A stretch of DNA of 35,898 nucleotides from Holophagaceae bacterium (GTDB lineage Bacteria > Acidobacteriota > Holophagae > Holophagales > Holophagaceae): positions 1-35,898 of the forward strand of contig JANXPB010000094.1 in assembly GCA_025357545.1 (NCBI GenBank). The letters run 5' to 3'. Positions 3,738-22,528 of the stretch are shown here, in pieces. Numbering within the stretch: position 1 is the first letter of the stretch; each line of letters opens with the position of its first letter. Under the pieces are notes generated by a model. The model did not search any database. It saw nothing but the letters and a program-made list of their open reading frames with translations, and was not told where the DNA came from. A program made the translations under genes and the position numbers.

Positions 3738-3745
3738 CCCCCGGC

Positions 3746-3768
3746 AGCTAGTGGTTCCACAACCAGCT
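3746..3768. terminator. possible bidirectional stem-loop between convergent genes
   Basis: AGCT+GGTT pair with AACC+AGCT, with a 3-base bulge and a 4-base loop, between the hydratase stop (3737) and the response-regulator stop (3783). There is no T-run, so this is weak. Confidence 0.25.
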
Positions 3769-3782
3769 CCCGGTATCGATCC

Positions 3783-4416: not shown

Positions 4417-5525
4417 GCAGGGGGATCATTCATCGGCAGCGCAAGGGTGGCGGCCAAGCCCTGTCCAGGCTCCACCACCAACGCCAGCGTGCCCCCGGCG
4501 GCCTCCACACGCTCGCGCATGGAGCGGAGGCCGCGGCCTTCGACCAAGCGGGTGGCACCGATGCCGTCGTCGCGGACCATCAAGCAGAGCCCCTCGGCCC
4601 GAGCTTGCACTTGGATCCAGATCTGCGCCGCGGAGGCGTGGCGCACGGCATTGGTGATGAGCTCCTGTGCGCAGCGCAGCAGCAGGCTGGAGCGCGCAAT
4701 ATCCACCGGCAGCGGGCCCTGGATTTCCAGGTGGATGCGCGGTTGGGGGAAGTCCACCACGAGATTGCGGAGGTCCTGAGCCAGATCCGCTCCCGGCGGA
4801 GGATGCAGCGTGTCCATGGTCCTGCGCAGATCCCGCATCAGGCCGCGCCCGATGGACGAGGCTGTTTCAAGGGCCTGCAGCCGGTGGTCCGCCTCCGCAT
4901 GGGTGGCCACCTCCAGATTGAGGTTCAAGGCCGTGATGCGATGACCCAGGGCATCATGCAGTTCGCCGGCGATGCGCACCCGCTCCGCCATGCGGTGGCG
5001 GTGCAGCAACAGTTCCTGGGCGGCCTTGAGGGCCTCCCGGGCACTGGTCTCTTGTTCCACCAGGCGGAAGGTCATAAAGGCCAGCACCTGGAAGCCAAAA
5101 TAGGGCGGTGACAGCATCAAAGCCTGGTTCAGCGTCCAGTGGTGGTCGATGGCCAGGGCACAGCCCAGGCTCTGGAGCGTGATCCAGGCAAACCCCGCCT
5201 TGATGGATAGTCGCGGCCCCAATTGCATGGCCACCAGCACCAGCAGGGCGCCTTCAAAGCCGTCGCAGCGCACCAGCACCATGGCCACCACGCAGGCGGC
5301 CTCCAGCGCCGGAAGGAGGAACTGCAAGGCCGACCCCAGGCGCGGGTAAACATCCCGGAAGGACGCATGGATCAGCCCGAAAAGCAGCCACAGGCCGATC
5401 CAAGAATAGACCCGGGCGGGTTGCTGGATGCGACCGAGAAAAGCCGAGGCGCCCACCATCCCCCACACCAGCAGCCCGCCCGATTGCAGCAGGTCATCGG
5501 ATTTTCTCAAGGGGAGGGATGGCAT
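4413..5525 (-). CDS. sensor histidine kinase, NarL/DesK type (HisKA_3)
   Basis: The 370-aa protein has about five hydrophobic segments in residues 17-155 that make a membrane sensor with no large periplasmic domain. A coiled-coil linker and the HisKA_3 motif RIAGELHDALGHRI follow, with H190 the likely phosphorylated histidine. The C-terminal HATPase_c domain shows the N box (CAQELITNAVRHA), MVRDDGIG and GRGLRSMRERVEAAGG. It is expected to phosphorylate the partner response regulator encoded immediately downstream with a 4-bp overlap. The signal is unknown. The ribosome binding site is poor: GGAG lies 17 bases upstream of the ATG. Confidence 0.92.
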   Translation of the reverse strand: MPSLPLRKSDDLLQSGGLLVWGMVGASAFLGRIQQPARVYSWIGLWLLFGLIHASFRDVYPRLGSALQFLLPALEAACVVAMVLVRCDGFEGALLVLVAMQLGPRLSIKAGFAWITLQSLGCALAIDHHWTLNQALMLSPPYFGFQVLAFMTFRLVEQETSAREALKAAQELLLHRHRMAERVRIAGELHDALGHRITALNLNLEVATHAEADHRLQALETASSIGRGLMRDLRRTMDTLHPPPGADLAQDLRNLVVDFPQPRIHLEIQGPLPVDIARSSLLLRCAQELITNAVRHASAAQIWIQVQARAEGLCLMVRDDGIGATRLVEGRGLRSMRERVEAAGGTLALVVEPGQGLAATLALPMNDPPA

Positions 5526-5578
5526 CCCGAGAACTATAGCTCCGGGCGGTCCAGGAGCTTCATAGGCCGAAAGTCATA

Positions 5579-5621
5579 GGCCCCGCTTAGTCCCTCGGGG
5601 CCATGGCACCAGACTGGCCCC
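5579..5621 (+). promoter_or_regulatory. three alternating GGCCCC/GGGGCC arms in the cupin-gene leader
   Basis: GGCCCCG (5579-5585), CGGGGCC (5596-5602) and GGCCCC (5616-5621) are regularly spaced. The central arm can pair with either neighbour, so two mutually exclusive hairpins are possible. They lie 33-75 bp before the cupin start, between divergent genes. In GC-rich DNA such arms can arise by chance. Confidence 0.3.
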
Positions 5622-5653
5622 TCCCCAAAATGACCTTCAGACCAGGAGCTTCC

Positions 5654-6388
5654 ATGGCCACGCATTCCGATCAGGGCCTCACGGTAGAGCGCCGATGGTT
5701 TTTTCAACTTCCACTCCTGGTCGTGGCCACTTCCCTAGCCGCCTAAACCGCGAAACTCGAATCCCTGGAGAATGCGGCCGTCGGGACCAGTGGAGGAACC
5801 GGAGCGCTGGACTTCCAGGCCTTCGCAAAGGCTTGTGGAGAGCTCTCGGCCCTGGCCAATAATGACAATTCCCTGCTGGAGGACGCCCATGTGGCGCGCA
5901 TCGCTGAAGCCGCGGTGCGGTTGAATCGCAGCACGGTTCCGGCAGGAAAGCTCTACCCCTTCGGCGGCTTCGTGGACATCGGACCGGTGGCGAAGGCGCC
6001 GGCCCTGGCGATCATCCTATGGCGGATGGGGCCCGGCGCCGTTTTCCCACCCCACGACCATGACCCGGTAGACGTGGTGACCCTGTGCCTGGAAGGCAGC
6101 TGCCGCGCCCACCACTTCGAGATCGAAGGCCCCCGGCCCCCGCACGAATCCCGCGAAAGATTCACCCTGCGCCAGACCTTGGACCTGCACATGACGCCAG
6201 GCCGCTGTTCATCCCTGACCCGCACCCGGGACTATATCCACACGTTCCAGGCGGGTCCCCAAGGCGTGCTGGCCCTGGACATCAACACTTCCCTGCCAGG
6301 AAAAGGCAGCTTCAGCTTCCTCGACATTCAAACGGAGGCTGTGGACGCGGGCCAGCGCCTCTTCAAAGGCAATTGGAAGGCGCTGTGA
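5654..6388 (+). pseudogene. secreted cupin-fold protein interrupted by an in-frame TAA
   Basis: An ATG at 5654, with AGGAG 5 bases upstream, starts a frame that stays open to 6388 except for TAA at 5744-5746 (codon 31). Codons 13-30 read RRWFFQLPLLVVATSLAA, a secretion signal with a twin-arginine start. The stop falls right after it, where CAA (Gln) would need only one change. The rest is cupin-like: PPHDHDPVDVVTLCLEG gives the HxH metal motif, and RTRDYIHTFQAG looks like the second cupin motif, resembling cysteine/thiol dioxygenase-type cupins. Full length would be 244 aa. GTG 5891, with GAGGA 7 bases upstream, could restart translation and give a 165-aa protein without a signal. No frameshift is present. 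Confidence 0.8.
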
Positions 6389-6414
6389 ACGATCCACTTC
6401 ACAAGAGGCACACC

Positions 6415-7011
6415 ATGCTTGCGCTGCTTTTCTCCCCCTTCATCGTGCTCCAGGGCGCCGCCACGCCACCCGCCCACGCGCAGGCGCTGGAGGCCATCCG
6501 CGCCTTGGGCGGGTCAGTCGAAGTGGACGAGCAACTGCCCGGAACACCCATCGTGAAGGTCGACCTCCATGGCACAGCCATCACGGACGCGGACTTGAAA
6601 ATCCTCGCGGACCTCACGGAACTGCGGCACCTCGATCTGAGGCTCACGAAAATCGGGGATGCGGGCGTCGCGCATTTGAGAGGGTTGGCGAAACTGCGCT
6701 TCCTGAATCTATTCCGCACGCAACTCGGCGACCGAGGGCTAGAACAATTGAAAGGCTCCAGCGAACTCGAGACGCTGCTGATGGGGGGCACCCGGATTTC
6801 CGACCTGGGGATGCCGGCCCTCAAGGCCTTTCCGCATTTGAAGAAGGTGAGCCTCTTCAATACGCAGGTTGGAGACGAAGGCATCCGCCAGCTCAAAGCC
6901 TTGAACGAATTGAAGGTCCTGCTCACCGCCCAGTCGCGGGTCACGGAAGCGGGCCAGAAGGCTCTCCGCGAATCCTTGCCAGGCCTGCGTTTCACCGAGC
7001 TCCAGAACTAA
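6415..7011 (+). CDS. secreted leucine-rich-repeat protein
   Basis: The 198-aa protein starts with a signal peptide (MLALLFSPFIVLQGAATPPAHA). It then carries about five leucine-rich repeats of roughly 24 residues, with units such as LTELRHLDLRLTKIGDAGV and LAKLRFLNLFRTQLGDRG, of the GDAGV/GDRGL type common in Planctomycetes and Acidobacteria. Such repeats bind proteins; no catalytic residue is seen. I chose ATG 6415 because AGAGG lies 6 bases upstream; the reading frame is open further left inside the cupin gene. It begins 26 bp after the cupin stop and probably shares its transcript. The partner is unknown. Confidence 0.8.
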   Translation: MLALLFSPFIVLQGAATPPAHAQALEAIRALGGSVEVDEQLPGTPIVKVDLHGTAITDADLKILADLTELRHLDLRLTKIGDAGVAHLRGLAKLRFLNLFRTQLGDRGLEQLKGSSELETLLMGGTRISDLGMPALKAFPHLKKVSLFNTQVGDEGIRQLKALNELKVLLTAQSRVTEAGQKALRESLPGLRFTELQN

Positions 7012-7024
7012 GGCCGCGGCCACG

Positions 7025-7348
7025 CTATCCCTTTTGCGGAATCCCCAAGCGGTCGTATTCCCCCTCGATGCGGCCAGTCACCATGAACCAGGCCATTTTG
7101 TGGTCCCCGGCCAACGACAGCCAGGGATGCCGGAAAGTGGCAGGACGGTTGCCCTCGATGGCGAAATGGCCCGTCCAGGCGAATCCGTAGGCCACGACGG
7201 GCACCGTCCAAAGCCAGGCGTAGCGCCCTGTTGCGCCAAGCGCGAGGAGGAGAGATAGGTAGCAGAGGGTGCCCACCAGATGCAGGCGCCGGTTCGCCCG
7301 GTGCCGGTGCTCTTTGAGGTACATGGGCCAGAAGGAGGCGAACGTCAT
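7025..7348 (-). CDS. DUF962 / Mpo1-like membrane protein
   Basis: The 107-aa protein begins MTFASFWPMYLKEHRHRANR, matching the start of DUF962 proteins, and continues RRLHLVGTLCYL, a hydrophobic pair (about 29-60), GHFAIEGNRPATFRHPWLSL and FMVTGRIEGEYDR. Its yeast relative Mpo1 is an Fe(II) dioxygenase of fatty-acid alpha-oxidation that uses conserved histidines; the HR..N..LH and GH..IEGN histidines are present here. An upstream ATG at 7441 would add 31 residues (138 aa), but these do not resemble the family. Neither start has a clear ribosome binding site. It is convergent with the LRR gene and divergent from the PDZ hydrolase gene. Confidence 0.75.
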   Translation of the reverse strand: MTFASFWPMYLKEHRHRANRRLHLVGTLCYLSLLLALGATGRYAWLWTVPVVAYGFAWTGHFAIEGNRPATFRHPWLSLAGDHKMAWFMVTGRIEGEYDRLGIPQKG

Positions 7349-7561
7349 GGCGGAATGGTACGCCCCCTGCGCGGGGCCCGGCTCATTGGTTTCGACCCCG
7401 AGCCATCGGAGCCGAGCCTGAGCCAGAATCGCGTAACCCATTACTTAATTGTTGCAATTATTAAATTTAAAATAATTAATGAAATTTAAAGCATGGAAAT
7501 GGCCTTGGCTCCGCACCAATAGCCGCTTCAGGACATATGACGGGAGGCGGAAAATCGATAT

Positions 7562-7597
7562 ACGAAGTAATTCGTTGAACAATACGAATTATTTCGT
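7562..7597. promoter_or_regulatory. twin-palindrome operator (ACGAA-N4-TTCGT twice)
   Basis: Two 14-bp palindromes, ACGAA-GTAA-TTCGT at 7562-7575 and ACGAA-TTAT-TTCGT at 7584-7597, are spaced 22 bp apart, two helical turns. Together they lie inside a larger inverted repeat, 7558-7575 against 7584-7601, matching at 17 of 18 positions. The right palindrome fills the space between the -35 and -10 boxes at 7575-7602, the usual position for a repressor. No regulator gene is adjacent. As RNA the region could also form a long hairpin. Confidence 0.6.
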
Positions 7598-7602
7598 ATA
7601 TT
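7575..7602 (+). promoter_or_regulatory. sigma70-like promoter of the PDZ hydrolase gene
   Basis: TTGAAC (7575-7580) and TATATT (7597-7602) are 16 bp apart, 25 bp before the start codon. This would give a leader of about 18 nt that includes the GGAG ribosome binding site. The region is strikingly AT-rich. Confidence 0.55.
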
Positions 7603-7626
7603 CATTTCCACCTCGCGGAGCCCGCC

Positions 7627-9012
7627 ATGAAACCGAACGCCCTCACTCTTTATGCCCTCGTCCTGGCGGTACCCCTGCCTTCACCGCGGTCACTGGCTAC
7701 AGTTCCACCTGCCGTTCCCGAAGTGAAGTCCCTGAATGGACTGCTGGATCGCGTGAGGGATCGCACCTCGATGCCGGGCCTCGCCGCGGCCGCGATCAAA
7801 GACGGGCGGATCGTCGGCCTGGGTGTTGGTGGAGCACGGGAACTGGGGAAACCTGAAGCCATTGAGGCGAAGGACCGCTTCGTCATCGGATCCTGCACCA
7901 AGGCCATGACGCGCATGCTGTTCGCCCGGCTGGTCCAAGCGGGGAAGCTTAGCTACGACTGGCCGCTGGCGAAGGCCCTGCCCGGCGTTGCCATGCGCAA
8001 GGAGTACCAAGCCGCCACCATCGGCGACCTCATGCGGCACACCAGCGGGCTGCAGCCCTACACCCGCATCACCCCCAAAGAAACCCCCATCATCTTCGAA
8101 CTGAAGGGCAACCCACGGGATAACCGGCGAGCTTTCGCCGCCCACGTGTTGATGGAAGCCCCCGCGGGCCAAGTCGGCAAGGACTTCGTCTACTCCAATG
8201 CTGGCTACTTGGTGTTGGGGGCCATCGCCGAGGCCGCGGGCGGGAAACCCTGGGAGGACCTGATGGAGCAAGAGGTCTTCCGGCCCCTGGGGCTCGCCTC
8301 GGCGGTCATCGGCCTCCCGGCGGCCCGGACGAAAGGGCCCATGCCTACCGGCCACCTGCGGGGACCTGGGGGCTTCGAAGTCGCAAAATACGGGCCGCCC
8401 CTGGAGGGCCTCTTCGCCCCGGCAGGAGGGGTGGTGCTCGCCATCGAGGACTTCGCCAAATTCGCCATGGCCGAAGCCGAAATGGAGGCCGGACTGGCCA
8501 ATGCCTACCTGGGTCAGGGCGCCATCAGCCAACTGCCCGCGCTGCGGCCCGCCGATGCTGGTGAAGCCGAGGGCGCCATTTTCTTCGGCGGCCAGGGCTC
8601 CTTCACCGCGGCCTTCGCCGTATGGCCCAGCCAACGGTTCGCGGTGGTGGTCTGCTGCAACGGGGGGGACAGCGATGAGCTCTGTGAAGCCGCAGTCAAT
8701 GCCATACGCAGCGACTGCGCCCCCGGAATCCCACCCAGTGCCGGCCCCAGGCCCCGGGCCCGTGCCCCGGCCGGAAGGAAGCTGGGGATCGGGCTTCGCA
8801 TGGAGCCGGGGGGGGTGCTCCGCATCGCGGGAGTCGCGGCGGGCAGCCTGGCGGACCAGGCCGGGCTCAAGAGCCAGGACCAGATCAGCCTGATCAACGG
8901 AAAGACGCCGGATAGCCTGGGCCAGGACGCGGTCATGACGGCCCTTGGTGCCCCAGCCCTGAAACTCGTGATCCTTCGGGACGGCAAGTCCCACCAGGTG
9001 GACATCCCTTGA
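7627..9012 (+). CDS. secreted serine hydrolase (class C beta-lactamase fold) with C-terminal PDZ domain
   Basis: The 461-aa protein has an N-terminal signal peptide (about 1-25), then a penicillin-binding-protein/beta-lactamase domain (about 35-365). Its SxxK motif is SCTK with S89 and K92, and the YxN motif is Y189-S-N191. The third motif looks weak, with FGGQGSFTA where the family has HxG. Residues about 375-461 form a PDZ domain (LGIGLRMEPGGVLRIAGV, then GSLADQAGLKSQDQISLING). It should act in the periplasm or outside as a peptidase or esterase on peptide or ester substrates; true beta-lactamase activity is not implied. GGAG lies 8 bases before the ATG. The promoter overlaps the twin-palindrome operator. 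Confidence 0.9.
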   Translation: MKPNALTLYALVLAVPLPSPRSLATVPPAVPEVKSLNGLLDRVRDRTSMPGLAAAAIKDGRIVGLGVGGARELGKPEAIEAKDRFVIGSCTKAMTRMLFARLVQAGKLSYDWPLAKALPGVAMRKEYQAATIGDLMRHTSGLQPYTRITPKETPIIFELKGNPRDNRRAFAAHVLMEAPAGQVGKDFVYSNAGYLVLGAIAEAAGGKPWEDLMEQEVFRPLGLASAVIGLPAARTKGPMPTGHLRGPGGFEVAKYGPPLEGLFAPAGGVVLAIEDFAKFAMAEAEMEAGLANAYLGQGAISQLPALRPADAGEAEGAIFFGGQGSFTAAFAVWPSQRFAVVVCCNGGDSDELCEAAVNAIRSDCAPGIPPSAGPRPRARAPAGRKLGIGLRMEPGGVLRIAGVAAGSLADQAGLKSQDQISLINGKTPDSLGQDAVMTALGAPALKLVILRDGKSHQVDIP

Positions 9013-9123
9013 TCCCACCCCACCTGATTCCCGCCCCGGCTCCGGGCGATTCACCATCAGATCAGGTCGGTTCACCCCTGTCCTTCCATGAATGGCCACG
9101 AAGCCCTGATAGGATTTCCAGCC

Positions 9124-10236
9124 ATGGCGTTCGACGGCCCACATACAAAACGTCTTTATTGGGGGGCCTGGGTGCTCCTGGGCCTCTTCATGGCCACCCA
9201 GGACATCCTGCGGACCACCCTGCCCTTGACGACCCGGTTCGTGGGTCAACTGTTACTGCTCAACCTGGCCCAGAACCTTTTCTGGGGCCTGCTGTCGCTC
9301 ATCACCCTGCGCATCGTCCGCCGCTACCCGCTCCAGGTCCATGCGCCCTTGAAGCATTGGTGGGCGCACCTGGCGGCGGGGGTGGTGATCACGACGGTGG
9401 GACTGGTGGGGATTGCCGCAATGGCCTTTCTTCTGGACCCGCCGAAATGGCCCCTGCTGAGGGCTTTCCAGCAGTTTGTGGTGTCCTACTTCTCATTCGA
9501 GTACCTGGTCAGCTACTGGGGCGTAGTGGGCATCCATGAAGGCCTCCAGATCCTGAAGAGCACCCGGGAACGGGAACTCCGGGTCTCCCTGCTGGAAGCC
9601 AAGGTGGCCCAGGCCCAGCTGCGGGCCCTGCAGATGCAGCTCAATCCCCACTTCCTCTTCAATACCTTGAATGCCGTCTCGGTCTTGATGCACACCGACC
9701 CCGCCACCGCCGACCGCATGCTCGTGAAACTCAGCCAGCTTCTGCGCCTGTCCCTTGAGCAGAGCCGTGAAGAAGAAACCAGCCTGGGCCGGGAACTGGC
9801 TTTCCTGGAAGGCTACTTGGAAGTCGAACGCATGCGCCTCGGCGACCGGCTGAGGGTGGTGTTCGAAGTGCCGGGTTCCCTGCTGGTAGCCCAGGTGCCC
9901 ACCTTCGTGCTTCAGCCCCTTTTGGAGAACGCCATCCAACACGGCATCTGCGAACGCAGCCAGGGCGGCACCATCCACATCCGTGCCCGGCAGGAGGGCG
10001 GGATGCTCACCATGGAGGTCCAGGACGATGGCCAGCGGCCTGGAGCCGGACAGGCCCTGCGGCCGGGCATTCCCGCCCCCCGCGACCCCCGGTCGCGCTT
10101 GGAGCTGGCCTATGGCCAGGAGCAGCGCCTGGACCTGCACTATCTGGAAGGCGGCGGCGCCGTGGCGCGCATCCACCTTCCCCTCAACCTCCTGGATAGC
10201 TCTCCGCGTTTTCTCGGTGCAGCGCTGCCCACCTGA
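9124..10236 (+). CDS. LytS-like membrane histidine kinase, ATP site degenerate
   Basis: The 370-aa protein has about four N-terminal membrane segments (11-145), a coiled-coil linker and a His_kinase (PF06580) domain with NPHFLFNTLN, where H176 is the likely phosphorylation site. The N box is LLENAIQHG. The G1 motif is VQDDGQRPGAG in place of DNGxG, and the G2 loop GIPAPRDPRSRL lacks the glycines and Asn of GIGLxNxxxRL. ATP binding may therefore be lost. It is a close paralogue of the next gene, which retains these motifs, so a heterodimer in which one subunit supplies the ATP site is plausible. I chose ATG 9124 for the AGGA 9 bases upstream; 9088 is possible. It leads a three-gene operon. Confidence 0.88.
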   Translation: MAFDGPHTKRLYWGAWVLLGLFMATQDILRTTLPLTTRFVGQLLLLNLAQNLFWGLLSLITLRIVRRYPLQVHAPLKHWWAHLAAGVVITTVGLVGIAAMAFLLDPPKWPLLRAFQQFVVSYFSFEYLVSYWGVVGIHEGLQILKSTRERELRVSLLEAKVAQAQLRALQMQLNPHFLFNTLNAVSVLMHTDPATADRMLVKLSQLLRLSLEQSREEETSLGRELAFLEGYLEVERMRLGDRLRVVFEVPGSLLVAQVPTFVLQPLLENAIQHGICERSQGGTIHIRARQEGGMLTMEVQDDGQRPGAGQALRPGIPAPRDPRSRLELAYGQEQRLDLHYLEGGGAVARIHLPLNLLDSSPRFLGAALPT

Positions 10237-10268
10237 CCCCCGCCCATGCTCCTCCCTCCGGCCTGACC

Positions 10269-11423
10269 ATGCCCATTCCACCTCATGAAGAACACCTCGC
10301 GCCAGCCCCGGAAAGCGACCGGGGCAAGCGTGGGCTCCGCCGCAGCTGGATCCTCTATTTGGGGGGCTGGACTCTCATCGGCCTCTACATGGCGAGCATG
10401 GACCTGATGGCCATCCGCACCGAAATCCAAGCCGAGTCCGTCCTCAGGATCCTCGGCATGAACCTGGTCCAGAACTATGGGTGGGCAGTGCTGTCGCTGG
10501 GCACCCTGGCCCTGCTGCGCAAGGTGCCTTTGCACCAGGGAGCCAGCGTGAAGGCCTGGACCCTCCACGGGGTTGCCAGTCTGGTCATCACGTGCGCAGG
10601 CATCGCGATGATGGTGTCGGTCGTGCCCCTTTTCTATGTGCCGAAATTGTCCTTCCTGCCCCGGCTTTGGCGCTTCATTCAGCAATATTTCCACTACTGC
10701 TACCTGGTCTACTACTGGGGCGTGGTGGGCCTGCATGAGGGCATCGCGGTCTACCGGCGGTCCAAAGAGCGGGAAGCCACGGCCTACCAGCTGGAAGCCA
10801 AACTGGCGCAGGCCCAGCTGCGGGCGCTCAAGATGCAACTCAATCCGCACTTCCTTTTCAACACCCTGAATGCCGTGTCCGCCCTGCTCCACAGCGACCC
10901 GGCCACGGCGGATCGCATGCTGGTGAAGCTCGGCAGCCTGCTGCATCTCAGCCTGGAGCAGTCCCGGGAGCAGGAGAGCAGCCTTGAACAGGAGATCGCC
11001 TTCCTGGAAGGCTATCTGGAAATCGAACAACTGCGTTTCGGCGAGCGGCTGAAGGTCCGTATCGAGGTGCCGAAACCCCTGCTGGAAGCCCAGGTGCCGA
11101 CCTTCGTGCTGCAGCCCCTGGTGGAGAACGCCATCAAGCACGGTCTTGCGGGCCGGGCGGCCGGCGGCACCATCCATATCCGCGCCCGCCAGGAAGGCCG
11201 ACGCCTCTTCCTGGAAGTGGAGGATAACGGCACGGGCATCCCCGGGGCCCATAGCGGAACTGGCATCGGCACCCGCAACACCAAGTCCAGGCTCGTCCAA
11301 CTCTATGGCGAGGAGCAGAGTTTCGACCTTAAATTCCCAGCCACAGGCGGGGCCCTGGCGCAGATCAGCCTGCCCTTTTCTCTCTCCAAAGGTTCACCTA
11401 TCTTTCAAGGGGGTATGCCATGA
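10269..11423 (+). CDS. LytS-like membrane histidine kinase
   Basis: The 384-aa protein has four hydrophobic segments (about 26-150) and a coiled coil carrying LEAKLAQAQLRALKMQL. The PF06580 motif is NPHFLFNTLN, with H194 the likely phosphorylated residue. The ATP domain is complete: N box LVENAIKHG, G1 VEDNGTGIPG and G2 GTGIGTRNTKSRLVQLYG. It lies 32 bp after its paralogue and overlaps the LytTR regulator gene by 4 bp (ATGA), so the three are co-translated. It should autophosphorylate and signal to that regulator. No extracytoplasmic sensor domain is seen; the sensing is probably within the membrane. Confidence 0.93.
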   Translation: MPIPPHEEHLAPAPESDRGKRGLRRSWILYLGGWTLIGLYMASMDLMAIRTEIQAESVLRILGMNLVQNYGWAVLSLGTLALLRKVPLHQGASVKAWTLHGVASLVITCAGIAMMVSVVPLFYVPKLSFLPRLWRFIQQYFHYCYLVYYWGVVGLHEGIAVYRRSKEREATAYQLEAKLAQAQLRALKMQLNPHFLFNTLNAVSALLHSDPATADRMLVKLGSLLHLSLEQSREQESSLEQEIAFLEGYLEIEQLRFGERLKVRIEVPKPLLEAQVPTFVLQPLVENAIKHGLAGRAAGGTIHIRARQEGRRLFLEVEDNGTGIPGAHSGTGIGTRNTKSRLVQLYGEEQSFDLKFPATGGALAQISLPFSLSKGSPIFQGGMP

Positions 11424-12187
11424 AGGGACCCGCACCCCTCCGCGCCCTCGTGGCCGATGATGAGGCCTTCGCCCGTCAGCGTATCCTGCAGCTGTTGGAG
11501 CGGGAACCCGATTTCCAGGTGGTCTCTGAATGCACACACGGCGGCGAAGCCGTGCAGGCCATCCGGGAGATGAAGCCCGACGTGGTCTTCCTCGATATCC
11601 AGATGCCGGAGTTGGACGGCTTCGGCGTGGTGGAGGCCATCGGCCCCAGCCTGATGCCGCCCACCATCTTCGCGACCGCCTTCGACCAGCACGCCATCCA
11701 GGCCTTCGAAGTGAGCGCCCTGGATTACCTGCTCAAGCCCATCGATCCCGACCGCATGGCCAAGGCCCTGGATCGCGTGCGGGCCTGGCAGCGTTCCGCG
11801 GAGCCGGAGAACCTGCGCATGCAGCTCGAAGGCCTGTTGGCCACGGTGCGCCAGGAGGATCCCCATCTCACCCGCATCCTGGTGAAGCAGGATGACCATC
11901 ACCTCATCGTGAAGGTCAGCGACATCCAATGGATCGAGGCCGAGGACAACTATGTCCGCATGCACATGGACAGCACTTCCTACCTGCTCCGCATGTCCAT
12001 GTCCGCCATGGTGACGCGCCTGGACCCCCGACAGTTCCGCCGAATCCACCGCTCCAGCATCGTGAACCTGGACTTCATCCGGGAGATCCACCCATGGTTC
12101 AGCGGCGACCACGTCGTGATGATGAAAGACGGGACACGCCTAACCATGAGCCGCACCTACCGGGACCAATTCAAGGAACTGGCCTGA
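11420..12187 (+). CDS. LytTR-type response regulator
   Basis: The 255-aa protein has a receiver domain (about 8-125) with VADDEAFARQR, phospho-acceptor D59 in FLDIQMPELDGF, conserved Thr in FATAF and Lys in LLKPID. A LytTR DNA-binding domain follows (about 150-252): ILVKQDDHHLIVKVSDIQWI, EAEDNYVRMH, RRIHRSSIVNLDFI and the terminal segment with LTMSRTYRDQF. LytTR proteins bind tandem direct repeats as dimers. It is the last gene of the kinase-kinase-regulator operon. Its targets are unknown; no LytTR-style direct repeat was recognised in this window. The 3' end is followed by the structured repeat. Confidence 0.95.
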   Translation: MKGPAPLRALVADDEAFARQRILQLLEREPDFQVVSECTHGGEAVQAIREMKPDVVFLDIQMPELDGFGVVEAIGPSLMPPTIFATAFDQHAIQAFEVSALDYLLKPIDPDRMAKALDRVRAWQRSAEPENLRMQLEGLLATVRQEDPHLTRILVKQDDHHLIVKVSDIQWIEAEDNYVRMHMDSTSYLLRMSMSAMVTRLDPRQFRRIHRSSIVNLDFIREIHPWFSGDHVVMMKDGTRLTMSRTYRDQFKELA

Positions 12188-12237
12188 ACCCAGCCGCGCC
12201 GGTCAGCTTCGAAGCGCAGTTGGGCCAGCCTTCCCAG

Positions 12238-12530
12238 CGGCTCGCCACAGTCCTGGCGCCACTCGCCCCCTGGCCATGGCGCCGAATCCGGATCACCGCG
12301 ATCTTGGATGAGTTCTCCCCCGGGGACCCGGGTGGAAGCGGGAGGCCAAACTTATCCTCCGGGAGTTTGGGCCTGCCCTGGGGGAGACGATCTTGAGGTG
12401 CATCCGCTGGGCCCTCCACCAAGATATGTGGGGCATGGGGCCCGACCCCCGACCACGATTGCACATTGCGATCTTTCCTGGCATCAGGGAGTCGAAGCAT
12501 GGCGCCGCCGCCGCGTGGGGAGGTGCGTTA
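12238..12530. repeat. structured intergenic element, copy A
   Basis: This stretch aligns with 13683-13973 (copy B), same orientation. The first 74 bp and the last ~150 bp align without gaps; the core differs by 2 nt. By eye identity is about 66% in the left 80 bp and about 55-60% in the right part. Near-identical blocks include CGGCTCGCC, GTTCTCCCC, TGGAAGCGGGAGGCC, GGGCCTGCCC, GGGGGAGACGA and TCGAAG. It can fold: outer stem 12314-12321 with 12380-12387 (8 bp), inner hairpin 12346-12352 with 12364-12370 (7 bp), and a small CCTG/CAGG stem before TCGAAG. It lies between the LytTR gene and the small secreted-protein gene. No intact protein frame is shared with copy B. Function unknown; a non-coding RNA or old mobile element are options. 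Confidence 0.65.
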
Positions 12531-12666
12531 ACCATCAGTCTCTGGGAATCAATGCAGATGCCAAAGCCGGTGTAGGACAGCCCACTTGGCGTGGTCCTTT
12601 GGACCATCCTTGAAGTGAATCAAAAATAGGAAATCAATGCTGCGATCGTGAACTCCGGGAGGCTAC

Positions 12667-13107
12667 TTGAAAGCACCTGTACGTGCATCCGCCATTCTCT
12701 TGGCACTCATTGCCTTAACTGGGATGGGCACTTCCGCCCAAGATCGGACTTCAGGCATCTGGGCCATTGATTTCGTCAAACCCAAAGATGGACAACGTCA
12801 AAACTACCTGAAATTCATCGAAGACAATTGGTTGAAGGCCCGCGAAGAAGCGAAGCAACAAGGGTTCATTGCATCTTTCAAAGTGTTGGTGCTTCCACCA
12901 CCCGGTGAGAAAGACTATGAGGTGTTGCTTGTGACGGAATATCCCGACAGGAACAGCTACTTGGCGCGAGAGGAACATTTCAAGGCAGTGTTCGCCAAAA
13001 TCGCACCGGCCGGACCAAGGCTTATCAATGGGCTAGGCTCACGGCAATTGGCCGATATCACCTCTTCCAGAGTCTTCACTGAACCATCCTTGGCTGATCC
13101 GAGGTAG
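12667..13107 (+). CDS. small secreted protein, function unknown
   Basis: The 146-aa protein begins with a signal peptide ending near GMGTSAQ (about residue 25). The mature part (GIWAIDFVKPKDGQRQNYLKF, then EYPDRNSYLAREEHFKAVF) has the pattern of a small alpha/beta protein and may belong to the dimeric alpha-beta barrel group, but no family is certain. The start is TTG at 12667, 4 bases after a strong GGGAGG; no in-frame ATG fits better. Base composition is lower in GC than its neighbours, with codons such as AAA, GAA and CAA more common, which suggests transfer or relaxed expression. The gene lies between copies A and B of the structured element. A hairpin TGGTCC-TTT-GGACCA is at 12592-12606, upstream. 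Confidence 0.7.
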   Translation: MKAPVRASAILLALIALTGMGTSAQDRTSGIWAIDFVKPKDGQRQNYLKFIEDNWLKAREEAKQQGFIASFKVLVLPPPGEKDYEVLLVTEYPDRNSYLAREEHFKAVFAKIAPAGPRLINGLGSRQLADITSSRVFTEPSLADPR

Positions 13108-13682
13108 TCGTTGGGCGCGAGCATTTCGTTCAACCCAGTAGCCGGATGTGGTGGGGTGGGTGGGCCGCCTCTCTCCTTCAGGATGGCCTGAAGCCACTCC
13201 TCAGCTTCGGCGCAGTCCAATCTGGCAATGGCCTGCGTTCCGAAGAAGACATGGGTTGATCGTAATCAGTTGCGCTAGCACCCTGCTGGTTGCGGGAAAA
13301 ACCAAGCCGCATCTTCGAGCAGATAGGACTCCAAGGCTAGCCACGAAAGTAGCCCCGACGGATACGGTGGATGAAATTGGTGTCAGCCAATTTAGAGCCT
13401 CCCATGTTCATTGCACCCCATGCGGCCTTGTCACGCCCAGGTTTGCCTGACTTGAGCTGCGGGGGATATCCCTGCGAACGCAAGGGGGCGCATCACCTCG
13501 AGGAGGCCCCTCGGAAGTGGCGGCGAGGAGCTTGAATCACCTGCCTCTCTGGCTCATGGATGGCCTAGCACAGCGCCTTTTCAGGGCCCTCCGGGGCCAT
13601 GATCCACGCCCGCCGAACTCCGTTCGAGGAATCGGCGCGGTCCTTCCAATACCGGGGACCTCGAATTGGAGGAGGCACTCCG
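13108..13682. other. non-coding stretch with possible gene remnants
   Basis: No convincing gene is found. On the minus strand about 13250-13110 reads HVFFGTQAIARLDCAEAEEWLQAILKERGG-like sequence (shown here in part), which looks like a protein fragment but is cut by stops on its upstream side. Composition is less GC-rich than the flanks. A short imperfect hairpin (TCCTTCCAAT with ATTGGAGGA) lies at about 13641-13675, just before copy B. Confidence 0.35.
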
Positions 13683-13973
13683 CGGCTCGCCCCGAAAGCG
13701 ACGCCCCTGGCCCCGCAACCGTGGCGAGGAAACCCGTGCGTCACGATATTGAATGCGTTCTCCCCTGGGAACTCGTGTGGAAGCGGGAGGCCGGACTTTT
13801 CTCTAGGGGTCCGGGCCTGCCCGGGGGAGACGACCTCGCCCAGCGTCCTCAGGGCAACCCATCAGGATTCACGGATTATTTCGTCCGCCCCTGGTTCAGC
13901 GGTGCGAACTGTGGGTGGTCCTGGTGCCAGGGAATCGAAGAGAAGCACCGCCGTTGGGCGGGGAGGCCCATCG
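13683..13973. repeat. structured intergenic element, copy B
   Basis: This is the partner of copy A (offset 1445 bp left of the core, 1443 bp right of it). The outer stem is 13759-13765 with 13824-13830. The inner hairpin, CCGGAC (13791-13796) with GTCCGG (13809-13814), keeps pairing although two base pairs changed from A-T to G-C relative to copy A. A CCTGG/CCAGG stem precedes TCGAAG at 13935, and CCGCC/GGCGG forms a last small stem. If transcribed rightward it would end at the terminator at 14021-14052. No gene is seen. Confidence 0.65.
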
Positions 13974-14020
13974 GCCACCAAAACCTCGTTCTGAACCTGC
14001 GATGCCTCCGCTTCCATCCC

Positions 14021-14052
14021 AGCTCGCGCGCCCCAGGGCCGCGAGCTTTTTT
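14021..14052 (+). terminator. intrinsic terminator after copy B
   Basis: AGCTCGCG (14021-14028) and CGCGAGCT (14040-14047) form a perfect 8-bp stem, followed by six T (14047-14052). It points rightward, and no plus-strand gene precedes it within 900 bp, so it implies a non-coding transcript across copy B. Confidence 0.72.
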
Positions 14053-14152
14053 GTGGCTGCCTTGCGCGCCAAGTCCCAGCGATTGGCACCAGTGGCGCCA
14101 AATGCTGGCGGTGGTGGAATCAGAATCCCTTGTGGACCTCGCCCCGCCTGAA

Positions 14153-14191
14153 TTGGAAGGCCCGCCAACCTCCGGTTGGCGGGCCTTCCAA
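14153..14191 (-). terminator. long perfect stem-loop ending the TonB receptor gene
   Basis: Arms 14153-14170 and 14174-14191 are perfect 18-bp inverted repeats around a 3-base loop, 17 bp past the receptor stop codon. Only a short T stretch follows on the minus strand. The stem may also block transcription from the left. Confidence 0.72.
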
Positions 14192-14208
14192 GGGGCAAAG
14201 CCGTCAGG

Positions 14209-17037
14209 CTAGAACCGCAGACCGAAGGCGAAATCGAGGTTGCGCGCTGCGACATAGTTTGTGGAGGAAGTCGGACGCCCATAGTTGGATCCCGCCGTCC
14301 ACCGACCGGTCGACGAAGTGCTGCCGGTGGTATTCCAGGTGATGAGGAGTTGGTGGTTGAAGAGGTTCTGGATGTTCAACCTTCCGAAGGCCGACACTTT
14401 CTTGAACAAGGGAATGTCATAGCCGATCTGGAGGTCCAGTCGCTGAAAATCTGGAAACCGCTGGGACCCACGATCCCCGAAATAGCGCGAGTAGGTCGGG
14501 GCGAAACCCTGATCCTGGAGGGCCTGGGGCGTCGGGGTGGAGGTTCCAGTCAATGAGTAGGGAGCTCCCGAAGCATAGGTCCATAGGCCGCCCAGATTGA
14601 AGACTCCCCGCCCCAAGGACTTCCGGTAAGTGGCATTCGCGATGATCGTGAGGGGCACATCCGAGGACAGGAATCCCTTGGGCCCCAGCTGGTCCCTGGG
14701 AATCTGGTTGCTCGGACCGAAATTATTGATCTGGTCGGTGGTTCCAACTTGGCCCCCTTCGTAATTGCCTTTTGTCTCGGCCAGGGTCGCATTGAATCCG
14801 TAGGAAATGTTTTCGTCGAACCGCCGCTGCCAGACGATCTCGATCCCCCAGTAGTCTCGCTTCAGCCTGGAATCGTTGGCGATGCGGGTCAGGATGAGGC
14901 CCCGGCCTGGATCGTAGGACTGGAAATCATCCACGAAATTGTCCCAGACGCGTTTGGAGACGTTGACGCTCCAGGAAGTCTTGCCATCGGTGTGGCTGTA
15001 CTGGGCCGCGATCTCCCTCATGTGGGGAGCTTTGAGGTTCGGATCCACCGACGTGGTGCGAAGAGCCGCGGTGTCATTGACGAAGAACGGGTTCGAGTCG
15101 AAGGCCGCCAGGTTGACCGAACCGTCGGTCTTGAGTGGATTGCCCCCGAGGTAGGCATAGTCGTACTGGCCAGGGGTTCCTGCCGGGGTGGCGGCGCCGG
15201 TGGTGCCGGTGGTGACCAGGCCCAGGTACTCTCCATACTGGAGGTTGAAGACGCTGTGGCCGTGGCCGTCCACGTCATAGATGGCGGCGAGGCGGGGGCT
15301 CACCTGGCTGAACTTGAAATTGGATTTCCCCAGGTCGTCCGTGGCCTCATGGCGATCGAAGCGAAGCCCCAGGTTGAAGGAGAGCTTGTCGTTCACCTTC
15401 CATTTGTCATTGATGAACAGGCTTTGTTCTTTGGTCTTCGCCACGGCTCCGAAATAGGGCTTCCAAAATTCTAGATACGAGGAAGACGGTTTATTTGGGA
15501 TCAACACACGGTTGGAGATGGCGGAATTGTGAGGGTCGTTGAAGCCTGCGAAATAGATGATGTAGTTCGAGGGCGTCTGGGCGTTCGCGGCGGCATTGGT
15601 GGATTCAAAGCTTTGGTAGCCGAATTTGAATTCGTGAGTGCCGTTCGCTTCGAAGAATTTGGTCATGGCGACATTAAGGGTCTTCACCGGCCGGGAGTCG
15701 CCGCTGTTGTCGAAGAAGCCATTGTCGAAGATGTCACCGGTGGTTAGATCAAACCACATCGGCACATTCTTGGGCCCCTGGCCGCCGCTGGGGCCTGCGG
15801 ATCCGCCCAGGGTCTCCTTCTTCTCGCTGTACCGCACGTCCATGAGGAAGCTGTCGCTGAACGTGCCGAGGTAGTTCACGGTGGTGTAGGTGTAGTCGTC
15901 CGTCTGGGAGGAAAGTGACGCGATGGACGTGCTGGATAAGCCGAACGAGGTCGGGTAGTCGAGATTGATGTTGGTCCGGATGGCCTTGTTGTACTGGAAG
16001 GACAAGCGGTGGTTGGTGTTGATCTGCCAATCCACCTTGGCGTCTTTGCGATTCTCGGAATCCGTGCGCACGAACCCGACGCCGCCGAAATCGCCTGAAG
16101 TGGTGGTGCCTGGGAAGGAACGGGGCGGCGTGGCCACCCGGTAGGCCAGGGCGAAAAACAGGTGGTCCTTGATGATAGGGCCAGTTACCACGTAGTTCTG
16201 GATGGTGGTTGTGGTGTTCGGGAATGACGTGAGTCCGTCCTTCCCGCGGTTCAGGGGGTTGTAGGCGTTCCAGGATGGGTTGGTCAGCTCGTAGCGGAGG
16301 GCGCCGTGGAATTCATTGGTTCCGCTCTTGGTAACTGTGTTCACGATGCCGCCGGTAGTGCGGCCGTACTCCGCCGACACACCGCCGCTGATGACCTGGA
16401 CTTCTTCCAGGAAATCCTCATTGAGTCGCACGGCGGGCCCACCCGTCACGGGGTCGGAGACGTCAGCGCCATCCACCAGCCAACCAACCTGGGTGCCCTG
16501 GGCTCCGCGGATGACCGTGTTTCCGTTCGCGTCCAAGGAAGTGCCGGGTGACTGGAGCGCGATATTGTTGATGGTGCGGTTATTGATGGGCAGGTTGTTG
16601 ATTGAGTCCACGCTGATGTTGGCGCCGCTCTTGGCATCCGTGCTGTCGATGATCCTTTCGCTGGAGGAGATGACCACGACCGTCGAGCCCGTTTCAGGAA
16701 TGAGCTTCAGCACCACATCCTGGACGTTGGTGCGGTCCACATTTACCCGCAGATCGAAAGAAGCGGAGATGAATCCCGGCGCGTTCACCTGCAGGCGGCC
16801 CACCCCAGGGATGAGCTGCGAGACCCGGTAGGCGCCCGTGGCATCCGTGCGCACGGTGCGGTCTCCCTGCCCCAGATGCAGCACGACCGATGCCCCCGTG
16901 ACGGGATTGCCTTTCTCGTCCCGTACCACCCCGGCCAGGGTCCCGGTTTGCGATCCTTGCGCCAACAGACCTGGCCCAGCGATCAGTGGAATGGCGCCCG
17001 CCACCAAATGCCGTAGCAAACGGGAACTGTTAATCAT
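14209..17037 (-). CDS. TonB-dependent receptor, Oar-like, with carboxypeptidase-regulatory domain
   Basis: The 942-aa outer-membrane protein has a signal peptide (to about LLAQG, residue 28). A carboxypeptidase regulatory-like beta-sandwich follows (about 32-115, GTLAGVVRDEKGNPVTGASV), then a plug domain (about 120-240) with NLPINNRTINNIALQSPG, VDGADVSDP and EVQVISGGVSAEYGRTTGG. The rest is a 22-strand-type barrel with typical motifs (GPIIKDHLFFAL, SLFINDKWKVNDKLSFNLGLRFD). It ends in LDFAFGLRF, a terminal Phe as in outer-membrane proteins. It imports or exports an unknown large substrate with TonB energy. GGAGGGG lies 7 bases upstream of the ATG. It stands alone, with terminator 14153-14191. 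Confidence 0.93.
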   Translation of the reverse strand: MINSSRLLRHLVAGAIPLIAGPGLLAQGSQTGTLAGVVRDEKGNPVTGASVVLHLGQGDRTVRTDATGAYRVSQLIPGVGRLQVNAPGFISASFDLRVNVDRTNVQDVVLKLIPETGSTVVVISSSERIIDSTDAKSGANISVDSINNLPINNRTINNIALQSPGTSLDANGNTVIRGAQGTQVGWLVDGADVSDPVTGGPAVRLNEDFLEEVQVISGGVSAEYGRTTGGIVNTVTKSGTNEFHGALRYELTNPSWNAYNPLNRGKDGLTSFPNTTTTIQNYVVTGPIIKDHLFFALAYRVATPPRSFPGTTTSGDFGGVGFVRTDSENRKDAKVDWQINTNHRLSFQYNKAIRTNINLDYPTSFGLSSTSIASLSSQTDDYTYTTVNYLGTFSDSFLMDVRYSEKKETLGGSAGPSGGQGPKNVPMWFDLTTGDIFDNGFFDNSGDSRPVKTLNVAMTKFFEANGTHEFKFGYQSFESTNAAANAQTPSNYIIYFAGFNDPHNSAISNRVLIPNKPSSSYLEFWKPYFGAVAKTKEQSLFINDKWKVNDKLSFNLGLRFDRHEATDDLGKSNFKFSQVSPRLAAIYDVDGHGHSVFNLQYGEYLGLVTTGTTGAATPAGTPGQYDYAYLGGNPLKTDGSVNLAAFDSNPFFVNDTAALRTTSVDPNLKAPHMREIAAQYSHTDGKTSWSVNVSKRVWDNFVDDFQSYDPGRGLILTRIANDSRLKRDYWGIEIVWQRRFDENISYGFNATLAETKGNYEGGQVGTTDQINNFGPSNQIPRDQLGPKGFLSSDVPLTIIANATYRKSLGRGVFNLGGLWTYASGAPYSLTGTSTPTPQALQDQGFAPTYSRYFGDRGSQRFPDFQRLDLQIGYDIPLFKKVSAFGRLNIQNLFNHQLLITWNTTGSTSSTGRWTAGSNYGRPTSSTNYVAARNLDFAFGLRF

Positions 17038-17576
17038 AAGAAGCCCCTCCCATGAAGCCGGTCACCTGGCCGGCGCGTGCTTGTCTTCCACCAAATTGCT
17101 CGCGTCGCGCCGGGTGACTACTGAAGTGGGAGGAATGAGTTTGTGACTGTGGCGAAATGCGCGAGTCCGGGGGTGAAGCGATGGCACCTTAGGGCGAGTT
17201 CGCGCAGCCGGGGCCAACCCCCGTTTTTTGGACGGAGTACCCCGCCAGTGAGGCCGATTAGATCCAGCGCCAGGCCGTCCAAGTTCCACCAGCCATGCCC
17301 AGCGAAGGGGCGTCCGCTTCGCGCGTGTGTTCCGCAATCACGCCAAGGGTTTCTAAAAAAGTTTCCCGCTCTTCCCGCGATAGGCCGCCCTGTCCCAGAA
17401 TTCCAGCGCCTCGCCCCTGATGGATTGTGAAGCCAGGAAGGCGCATGGAGACTTAACGCATTTCAAGGCCTCGTGTCCTTCCGTTCCTGGCGGTTTACCT
17501 CTTCGTTGCCCTCGCTGCGGCCCTCAGTCCTACCCCCCAACCTTGGCGATGCCGTGCACCGCCTTCCGGAGACCGT
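17038..17576. other. 539-bp intergenic region between divergent outer-membrane genes
   Basis: No gene is convincing. It holds the leader of the minus-strand receptor and the promoter region of the barrel-receptor-barrel operon. It also contains a plus-strand terminator-like hairpin at 17209-17229 and, on the minus strand (17446-17258), a frame with LSREERETFLETLG that resembles the last helix of a MarR-type regulator. No sigma70 promoter could be assigned with confidence. Confidence 0.4.
17209..17229 (+). terminator. orphan terminator-like hairpin
   Basis: CGGGG (17209-17213) and CCCCG (17219-17223), followed by six T (17224-17229), form a short GC stem with a U-tract. No plus-strand gene precedes it, since the flanking receptor is transcribed leftward. 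Confidence 0.45.
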
Positions 17577-18275
17577 ATGTCCAAACTCAGATTGCTCGCC
17601 TGCCTGCTGGTGGCCCTGGGCGGCCCCGGTAGGGCGCTCGTGGCCCAGGAGGCTCCATTCACTGGCGCCTTCAAGATCGGATTGGGATCGCTTAGCGGCG
17701 ACGCAAAAAAGGCTCTCGACCTGGGTGCCACCTTCTCCTTCGCTGCCGAGGGTGCCTACTCACTAAGCGACCGTTCCTCCCTGGTCGGAGAGGCCGGCTA
17801 CCGCTACTTTCCCGGCGACAACCAACTCTTGAGCTTCATTCCCGTGTCCGTCACGGCCACCGGCGTGAACCCGACCATCTACGAGACCCGCAATCGGCGC
17901 ACCGAGGCCAAAGGCTTTCAATTGACCGGGCTGTACCGCTTCGAAGTCATGCCCAAGCAGTTTTACATCCAGGCAGGACTTCGCCTCGGCCAAAACAAGG
18001 CCACCGAAACGGACACTGGCACACAGCTCGTCACGGACGGAACCGCGATCGCCAACACCGGGACCATCAGCAATTCGCACATCCTGGCCATCCGGACCAT
18101 CGCCTCGGTGAATGAGAAGAAGACCCTTTCCATCGGGCTATTGGCCGGGGTGGGCTACCGCTTTCTGGGCCGTTACGCCGCCGAGCTCAATGTCTTCAAC
18201 ACCAAGATCGAGACCCCTGCCAACGGCGCCAAGACTGGCCTCGTGGCGGAAGTGGCCTTCTCGGTCCAGTTCTGA
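17577..18275 (+). CDS. secreted outer-membrane beta-barrel protein
   Basis: The 232-aa protein has a signal peptide (to about ALVAQE, residue 24). A series of alternating hydrophobic strands follows: FKIGLGSLSG, ATFSFAAEGAYSL, SSLVGEAGYRYFPG, FQLTGLYRFEV, FYIQAGLRLGQ, ILAIRTIASV, LSIGLLAGVGYRF and TGLVAEVAFSVQF. The final Phe fits an 8- to 10-strand outer-membrane barrel. Function is unknown. GGAG lies 5 bases before the ATG. The TonB receptor gene starts 15 bp after its stop, and a second small barrel gene follows that, so the three form one operon and the barrels may help the receptor. Confidence 0.8.
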   Translation: MSKLRLLACLLVALGGPGRALVAQEAPFTGAFKIGLGSLSGDAKKALDLGATFSFAAEGAYSLSDRSSLVGEAGYRYFPGDNQLLSFIPVSVTATGVNPTIYETRNRRTEAKGFQLTGLYRFEVMPKQFYIQAGLRLGQNKATETDTGTQLVTDGTAIANTGTISNSHILAIRTIASVNEKKTLSIGLLAGVGYRFLGRYAAELNVFNTKIETPANGAKTGLVAEVAFSVQF

Positions 18276-18290
18276 GCCAGGAGGAGACCC

Positions 18291-21200
18291 ATGATGAAAC
18301 CATCGACCTTCCGAATTCTCTCCCTCCTTTCCCTCGCCATGGTCGCCACGCCGGTGCTGCTGGCCCAGGACTCCACGGGTCAGATCGTGGGCAGTATCCT
18401 CGCCAAAGGCGGCGCACCGCTTGGCAGTGTGCTGGTCCGGATCAGCTCGCCCGCCCTGCAGGGCACGCGCACGGTCAGCACCGATGACAAGGGCAGCTTC
18501 CGGGCGCCTCTGTTGCCCCCAGGGGTCTATACGTTGACCGCCGTGAAGGAAGGCTTCCTCTCTGGCTCCGCCCGGGCAGACCTGCGGTTGGGCCAGGTAC
18601 TGCGCCAGGATCTGGTGCTGAACCCCGCCGAAGTGCCCAGCACCACGGTGGTGGTCTCCGCATCGTCCACCAACCAGGACAAGACCGATGTGAAAACCGC
18701 CACGAGCATCACGGCCGAATTCATGGATTCCATCCCCCGGGCCACGCGCGGGCTCGACACCGCGGCCTTCCTTGCCCCGGGCGTGACGGGCCGTGGCGTG
18801 GCGAACGCCAATGGCCAACAGAATGTGGTCATCCGTGGAGCCACTTCGGTCGGCAACCGCTTCCTGCTGAATGGAACGGATATCGCCGACAACGTGTTCG
18901 CCCAATCCGACGGCCGGAACTACTACGTGGATGATTCAATCCAGGAAGTCCAGGTCATCCAAAGCCCGGTCAACGCTAAGTTCGGCAACTTCACCGGCGG
19001 CATCATCAATGCGCTCACCAAGTCCGGAGGCAATGAGTTCACGGGCATCCTTCGGGGCAATCTGACCAAGGCCAGCTGGTCGGCCCAGGCCCCCCGCGGA
19101 ACCCGCCCTTCGATCGTGCCGGTCAATGGAGGCTCGGGGGCCACCGAGGACACCCTGAGCAAGGCCTACACCCTGCAACTGGGCGGCCCCATCATCAAGG
19201 ACCGCCTCTGGTTTTCCGCTTCAACCAAGCAGAATCCCACCACGGTGGGCATCATTAGTTTCGCCCAACCTTCAACCTTCACCACCTACTACACCGGCGT
19301 GCCGGCGTTCACACTGCCCACCGTGGGGCAGCCCTTCCCGCAGGTCCAAAGCCTGCAGTTCTACGAAGGCAAGCTGACCTGGGCCATCAACGCGAACCAC
19401 ACTCTGGAAGCGGGCCAGACGCGGAACGTGGCTACCACCACCAACCAGATCATCGGCAATTCCTTCGACCCCGATACGCTAGCGGACCGCAAGGACACCA
19501 ACGAATACAAGACCTTGGCCTACAGGGGCATCCTGGGCAGCAACCTGACCGTGGAAATGCGGTACGCCAAGAAGGCCGACACCATTTCCTCAGGCGGTGA
19601 TCTGAACAAGCCCTTCCCCCAGCGCATCGATGCGCTGTATGGCAATGGCGTCTACTACCGGTTCAACAACGCGACCTTCAGCAAGCTGAAGCCTGACCAG
19701 CGGGACGCCACCACCTACACGGCGAACCTCACGTGGTTCTCGCCCACGACCTCCTTGGGCACCCATGTGGTCGAAGCAGGAATCGAGCGCATCGTTTCAG
19801 AATTCTCCTCGGCGAACGATCAGTCGCCGACGAACGAGCGCATTTTTGTGGGCGGCCGCAAGGCCAACGGCAACTATGAAGTCCAGAGCATCGCTGACGA
19901 CCCGGACCAGGCCGTGGCGCTGCAACTCTATTTCTCCAGCGCAGGCAAGGCGACCACCACCACCCAATCCTTCTACATCAACGACACCGCCACGCTGAAC
20001 GACCACCTGCAGGTGATGCTGGGTCTGCGTTACGACTCGGCCAACGCCGAGGACACCTTCGGGAAGAAGAACATCGGCTCCAGCAAGGCCAGCCCCAGGT
20101 TCCAGCTCACCTACGACCCCAAGGGCGATCAATCCTGGGTGTTCCGCGGCAGTTTCGCCACCTATGTGGGCAAGCTCCACGACGGCCTCACCAGCAAGTT
20201 CACCTTCGCCGGGAATCCCATTTCGGAAACCTACGGCTACAAGGTCACCAACCTGAACGCCACCTACGCCCAGGTTGTCGACCTGAACAATTGGGATATT
20301 TCCGCCAACGGCTTTCTGGGGGCCGGTGGCTCCACCGGGACGTTCGTCAACCCGCACCTCAAAGCGCCCTCGGTGGACGAGGTCAGCGTGGGCGCCCGCA
20401 GGAACTACAGAGATGGCTCCTTTCTATCCCTCAGTTTCAACAAGCGCACGTTCAAGGATGAATTCGACGACAATTTCGCCATCGCCGATGAAGTCCGGCA
20501 GAGCTCCTTCGTGACTCCCGGAATAACCCTGGTCAACACCGCCACGCGCTGGAGCAACAGCTCCACAGAGAAACGGGATTTCAACAGCCTTGAGCTGGAA
20601 TTCCTGCATGTGCTGAGCGGCCAGTGGTCCTTGGGCGGCAATTACACCCTGTCCAGCCTTCAAGGCAATGGGGAAGGCGGGGACAACTCGTCCATCTCCC
20701 GTAATGTCTCGAGTCTCGGCGACCCCTTGGGCAACTACGAAAGCGTGCACCGGTCCCGGGGCCGGGACCAGAGCTACTACGCGCCCTATGGCTACCTGTC
20801 CTCGGACACCCGCCACCGCGGCAAGGTATTCCTGAACTACCTGGACCGCAGCTCCGCCGGCGGCACCCTCCATGCCTCCATGCTCCTGAATTACACCGGC
20901 GGACAGGTCTATGACGTCGCCACCACCAACAATTTTGAAGCCGGGCAGGATGCGGTCGCCGCCGGGAGCCAATCTCCGAATCTCTACCCCACCACCTACA
21001 CCCGTTACTGGGGCCGCGGCGTCGGGCGATTCAACGACACTTACAGCGTTGATTTCAAGGTGGGCATGGAGGTGCCGCTGTTGCGGAAACTCCGGTTCTT
21101 CACGGAAATCAACATCACCAATTTCTTCAATCACCAACAGCAGGGCACCTTCTCCACGGCCACGAGCGGAACCTCCCAGGCCACCGACAGCGCCAAGAGC

Positions 21201-21320: not shown

Positions 21321-21346
21321 TCCAACGAGACCAAGGGAGACAGAAC

Positions 21347-21910: not shown

Positions 21911-21937
21911 GACGTCCCGAGCCTAGGTATGGCAGGA

Positions 21938-22003
21938 GTCGCCGTGGTACCTGGATAGCGAGTGCCCCCTAAGGGCCTCTCTTCCTGGTACCGCGGCGGC
22001 TTT
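21938..22003 (+). terminator. long imperfect hairpin ending the receptor operon
   Basis: Arms 21938-21955 and 21983-22000 match at 15 of 18 positions, each containing GGTACC. The loop has a further GCCC/GGGC stem, and three T follow. It is well placed 28 bp after the last operon gene. Confidence 0.55.
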
Positions 22004-22149
22004 CATGTCGATGCGATTTCCGGCCAGGGGCCCTGTCCCGAAAATATGGAAATCCGCCGGCGTGGGCCCACTGGTTTTTTTCGCCGCCGCCAACCCAACT
22101 CCGTCAATAATGCGGCGTCATCACTTTTCTGGAATGGAGAGGGGCTCGT

Positions 22150-22527: not shown

Positions 22528-22528
22528 G

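Follow-up and report, generated by a model that had tools for sequence, protein, structure and literature searches.

Purine riboswitches are built on a three-way junction with a loop-loop contact, and attC sites and REP- or MITE-type repeats are intergenic folded repeats whose structure is conserved while their sequence varies. In Acidobacteria, Acido-1 (RF01686) and Acido-Lenti-1 (RF01687) have been described as lineage-restricted noncoding RNA candidates, and the L17 downstream element is known as a structured motif downstream of genes, within potential 3' UTRs, with its strand argued from G-U pairs (PMC2864571). The element described here occurs twice, as copies A and B, in a Holophagaceae bacterium, within a stretch of 35,898 nucleotides that was analysed as a whole and is called the window below. 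It is a real, non-coding element that on present data is limited to one genus and probably acts at the RNA level.

Homology and taxonomic range of the element

The segments 12238-12530 and 13683-13973 had been proposed as two diverged copies alignable over their whole length, and they are indeed homologous end to end, with 65% identity over 305 nt (E 6.7e-30, local BLASTN against about 64 kb of sequence). Their alignment offset is 1445 in the 5' part and 1443 in the 3' part, which confirms the predicted net loss of 2 nt in the core. The right 130 nt of A and B contain 76 identities, where random pairs gave 34.9 +/- 5.7 and none of 19,857 scored as high. With copy A as the query, copy B was the sole further copy in the host genome.

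12238-12530, + strand: copy A, whole homologous stretch (alignment; BLASTN to copy B)
13683-13973, + strand: copy B, whole homologous stretch (alignment and BLASTN)
12303-12394, + strand: structured core of copy A (P2, P3, P4), common to four homologues; cmsearch 100.1 bits, with this core among the four model-building sequences
13748-13837, + strand: structured core of copy B (P2, P3, P4); cmsearch 105.4 bits, likewise for a model-building sequence

Of the four other genomes in the genus, two carry one homologue each, namely G003 (JANYJQ010000193.1, a Holophagaceae MAG) and G001 (JAJYMZ010000130.1, an Acidobacteria MAG). Both homologues cover the left ~160 nt only, that is, the 5' part and the core. 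The original prediction of a structured element of about 293 nt therefore has to be cut back, since the right ~135 nt are missing from both sister-species copies and confined to the window copies, and the 5' ~80 nt have no consensus structure above shuffles (z 0.27). Copy A is 65% identical to copy B and 70% identical to the G003 copy over their common 160 nt (BLASTN), so the duplication is probably old, or else the sequence changes fast. As A resembles the G003 copy at least as much as it does B, the two window copies are probably old paralogues.

A covariance model, R1, was built from the four cores (A, B, G001 and G003) and scores these building sequences at 89-105 bits, as expected. Searches with R1 covered 77 family genomes, 93 class genomes (the host and 92 others) and a sample of 396 genomes from the phylum, three sets that overlap. 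Nothing beyond the four known copies exceeded 25 bits in the family, and no further match reached E 0.01 in the class. The phylum sample gave one weak match, G341 L098:526-623, with 28.6 bits and an E-value of 5.6e-4 for one genome, or about 0.2 over all 396. Its start coincides with the first codon of an enolase gene, the sequence taken alone does not form P2, and its order has no second genome in which to test it; it may be a chance match and is treated as such. G341 belongs to another Acidobacteriota family, and the match lies there between divergent enolase and cutA-like genes. It has the blocks TCTCCC, GGTGGAA, CGGCGG and GGGAGGCG in common with G001, together with a perfect 9-bp outer stem.

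Besides the two sister MAGs, a pattern scan of 84,980 species genomes returned one stretch in Microbacterium, where the match is limited to model positions 26-39. Against Rfam 15, the window matched no family at gathering scores and gave chance-level matches only at a relaxed threshold, in agreement with the earlier statement that the element fits no recognised RNA family. As a side result, 6S RNA (RF00013) had no match in the five genus genomes G000-G004 while controls were positive, and it may be absent from the genus or too diverged. On present data, the element appears confined to one genus among the genomes searched.

Fold of the shared core

All four cores fit one three-way junction, in which a closing stem, P2, holds two hairpins, P3 and P4. 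P2 comprises 10-12 bp (CUCCCyyGGG/CCCrrGGGAG plus two outer pairs), with one bulged U in copy A. P3 has 3 bp (CCG/CGG) and the near-invariant loop GGUGGAAG, which reads UGUGGAAG in copy B. P4, the longer hairpin, consists of AGGCC/GGCCU, a variable upper helix and a pyrimidine-rich loop. Invariant columns make up 7 of 8 in the P3 loop, 9 of 20 in the P4 stem and 2 of 11 in the P4 loop. The outer stem TCTCCCC/GGGGAGA was found in both window copies as predicted, and the switch of the inner hairpin from CCAAACT/AGTTTGG to CCGGAC/GTCCGG is as first described.

The automatic alignment has standard pairs in 92 of 100 cells: P2 and P3 are fully paired in all sequences, and P4 reaches 80%. When P4 is registered by hand, which favours the structure, all 100 listed pairs are standard, with eight G-U and no A-C. 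Both sides have changed at three pairs, one in P2 (C-G to U-A) and two in P4 (A-U to G-C). The two further homologues keep the fold and add the double change in P2 to the compensatory change described for the window copies. In a shuffle control, 93 of 500 shuffles reached three such pairs, a result that is not significant with four sequences only. Every one-sided change gives a G-U on the + strand and would give an A-C on the - strand, and 92% of the cells pair on the + strand versus 83% on the - strand. Because this wobble bias lies on one strand, RNA made from the + strand is favoured over single-stranded DNA.

The consensus energy of the core also beats column shuffles (z -3.98; SCI 0.70 versus 0.53; RNAalifold). 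So does that of the reverse-strand core (z -3.96), because P2 is nearly strand-symmetric. As single sequences, the ~90-nt cores give z-scores of -2.55 (A), -2.73 (B), -0.88 (G003) and -2.95 (G001), and the minimum-energy fold of G003 contains neither P3 nor P4. The full ~292 nt fold no better than shuffled sequence in either window copy (z -0.83 and -0.89). The structural signal resides in the ~90-nt core, not in the full ~292 nt. The proposal that selection acts on RNA or single-stranded DNA structure is supported for the two cores, with RNA as the favoured form, and is not supported for the 293 nt as a whole. Alignment and folding models together lend fair but not conclusive support to a conserved core fold, four sequences being too few for a firm covariation test.

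A contact between two of the loops is conceivable: in all four sequences, 5-6 of 6-7 positions could pair between the P3 purine loop (GGUGGAA) and the UUCCUCC-type pyrimidine loop of P4, in a register that depends on the alignment. In copy B, one putative loop-loop pair changes from G-C to U-A, subject to the same register. Purine and pyrimidine loops match easily by chance, and the modelled contact is a lead only. Building on it, one could imagine a new RNA class, a P2-closed three-way junction whose GGUGGAAG P3 loop kisses the P4 pyrimidine loop and which acts in trans or, released from the 3' ends of mRNAs, senses a ligand or protein; we regard this as quite improbable.

Gene context and synteny

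The element of G001 and G003 is flanked by a crotonase gene on one side and, on the other, by a convergent gene of no assigned family. Since orthologues of both flanking genes occur in the window, its two copies fall inside the same interval as the sister-species copies.

2961-3737, + strand: crotonase-type (enoyl-CoA hydratase-like) gene, whose orthologues in G001 and G003 precede the element there (85% identity)
11420-12187, + strand: LytTR response regulator that precedes copy A (Pfam PF04397 and PF00072)
12667-13107, + strand: 146-aa ORF between copies A and B, with no family match
14022-14053, + strand: likely intrinsic terminator about 50 nt after copy B, GCTCGCG ... CGCGAGC then TTTTTT, read directly from the sequence
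22529-24736, - strand: orthologue (82% identity over 485 aa) of the convergent gene after the G001 and G003 elements

This interval measures about 0.2 kb in G001 and G003, 3.6 kb in G002 and 18.8 kb here (3738-22528), a site that varies in size within the genus. In G002 it holds two histidine kinases and a LytTR regulator, the counterparts of window genes 9088-12187; about 13 nt separate the end of this regulator from the convergent gene, and no element is present at that junction. The G004 contig has an unrelated gene after the convergent one and contains no element from there to its end. Its position marks the element as an inherited locus, lost from some species or never present there, and not as a dispersed repeat.

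The gene at 22529-24736 is a 735-aa ORF that is 82-89% identical among genus members over the 485 aa compared and has no Pfam or NCBIfam match. Searches of Pfam, NCBIfam and plasmids likewise matched nothing to the 146-aa ORF between the copies. In G002 (L094:1729-1807, 84% over 83 nt) and G003 (L097:4523-4575, 75% over 53 nt), the crotonase gene is closely followed by a partial repeat of its own 3' end, which suggests that DNA was repeatedly inserted or rearranged at that gene end.

All four copies come after a + strand gene, and three of the four face a convergent gene. Copy A directly follows the LytTR regulator and lies between co-directional genes, copy B follows the 146-aa ORF, and the G001 and G003 copies follow the crotonase gene. 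With this arrangement, a cis-regulatory leader or riboswitch role does not fit: the G001, G003 and B copies precede a convergent gene, and only A precedes a + strand ORF, about 270 nt away.

None of the four copies has a T run after P2, whichever strand is read, and terminator scans listed none at the cores, so the core is not a standard intrinsic terminator, which would carry a T run directly after the stem. The likely terminator at 14022-14053 was not listed by the scan, whose limit its loop exceeds. Further along, at 14153-14191, an inverted repeat with perfect 18-bp arms and a loop of 3 nt (TTGGAAGGCCCGCCAACC) stands just past the end of a TonB-dependent receptor gene and probably marks the transcription end of that gene.

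Interpretation and comparison with known systems

The best explanation, to which we give roughly an even chance, is that the + strand of the ~90-nt core yields a small structured RNA located in the 3' region of the upstream gene, either a 3'-UTR element or a small RNA. The core would be transcribed together with the upstream gene and would fold so that P2 closes and holds the short P3 hairpin, with its GGUGGAAG loop, and the longer, sequence-variable P4 hairpin. As a 3'-UTR element it would then protect the 3' end or take part in its processing; alternatively, it would be released from there as a small RNA, and the P3 loop may serve as a contact site. No sigma-70-like promoter was found near the copies, although that consensus may not hold in this phylum, and the 3'-UTR reading fits slightly better because promoter-like sites were not found.

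The same promoter result weighs against a standalone small RNA gene that was duplicated, with each copy under its own promoter and acting by base pairing in trans, for example between the UCUCC/CCUCC-type loop of P4 and ribosome-binding sites. Such a gene would agree with the tandem paralogues, the likely terminator after copy B and the accessible conserved loops. A, G001 and G003, however, have no clear terminator, and the poor conservation of the P4 loop does not favour pairing through it, so that we consider this reading unlikely. A transcription-end structure or barrier, with P2 as a stem-loop that ends or protects transcripts where genes meet, mostly convergently, and that has no sequence-specific role, appears somewhat more doubtful. 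It draws on the three copies between convergent genes and on the strength of P2 on both strands, but the missing T run, the co-directional genes around copy A and the same junction without an element in G002 all speak against it. An inert barrier is further disfavoured by the one-strand wobble bias and the near-invariant P3 loop.

Acting instead as folded single-stranded DNA, the element could be a non-autonomous mobile element or recombination site of the MITE, REP-like or attC-like kind. In keeping with this, the two copies flank a small ORF in an interval that has expanded to 18.8 kb in this genome, and the duplicated crotonase 3' ends in G002 and G003 suggest a repeatedly rearranged site. 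A genome with two adjacent copies and no terminal inverted repeats does not present a MITE- or REP-type repeat, and integron-type GTTRRRY/RYYYAAC ends were not seen by eye at the core. With at most two copies per genome, the same gene interval in three genomes, a G-U bias that predicts RNA, and no match to the element in plasmids, phages or IMG/VR viral contigs, we judge this reading to be highly improbable. A decayed, tandemly duplicated protein-coding gene is scarcely credible: open frames cross both copies and frame +2 of the 3' part keeps 25 of 60 residues identical, but A/B mismatches spread evenly over codon phases (22/21/19 and 14/16/10), indels of 1-3 nt among the homologues shift the frame, and no Pfam or NCBIfam match lies above cut-off, which bears out the original prediction that the copies share no intact ORF.

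A structured RNA in the 3' region of its upstream gene thus remains the preferred reading. If transcribed, the element would add a lineage-specific structured RNA to a phylum with few described. Additionally, its one or two copies at a repeatedly rebuilt gene junction would offer a usable case of young RNA duplication and loss. In itself, the element settles no long-standing question.

Among known systems, attC sites and REP- or MITE-type repeats resemble the element in being intergenic, folded and variable in sequence, but the element showed no terminal repeats and, by eye, no integron core sites, and occurs in one or two syntenic copies with an RNA-type wobble bias. With the purine riboswitch it has in common a closing stem and two hairpins whose loops could pair (GGUGGAA with UUCCUCC-type); unlike that riboswitch, it does not lie upstream of a common gene, its P3 has 3 bp versus about 10 in P4, and it has no Rfam match. 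Closer is the L17 downstream element, which is also structured, lies 3' of genes and had its strand argued from G-U pairs, as here; that motif follows one fixed gene, whereas the gene upstream of the present element differs between copies and no Rfam model matches it. Acido-1 and Acido-Lenti-1 are, like this element, comparative-sequence candidates of Acidobacteria that are not cis-regulatory of a fixed gene (PMC2864571); the window element matches neither model nor any other Rfam 15 family and occurs in one genus only. Judged from sequence comparison, its nearest kinds are the lineage-restricted structured RNA candidates and the 3'-region motifs, and it would represent a new candidate RNA of such a kind.
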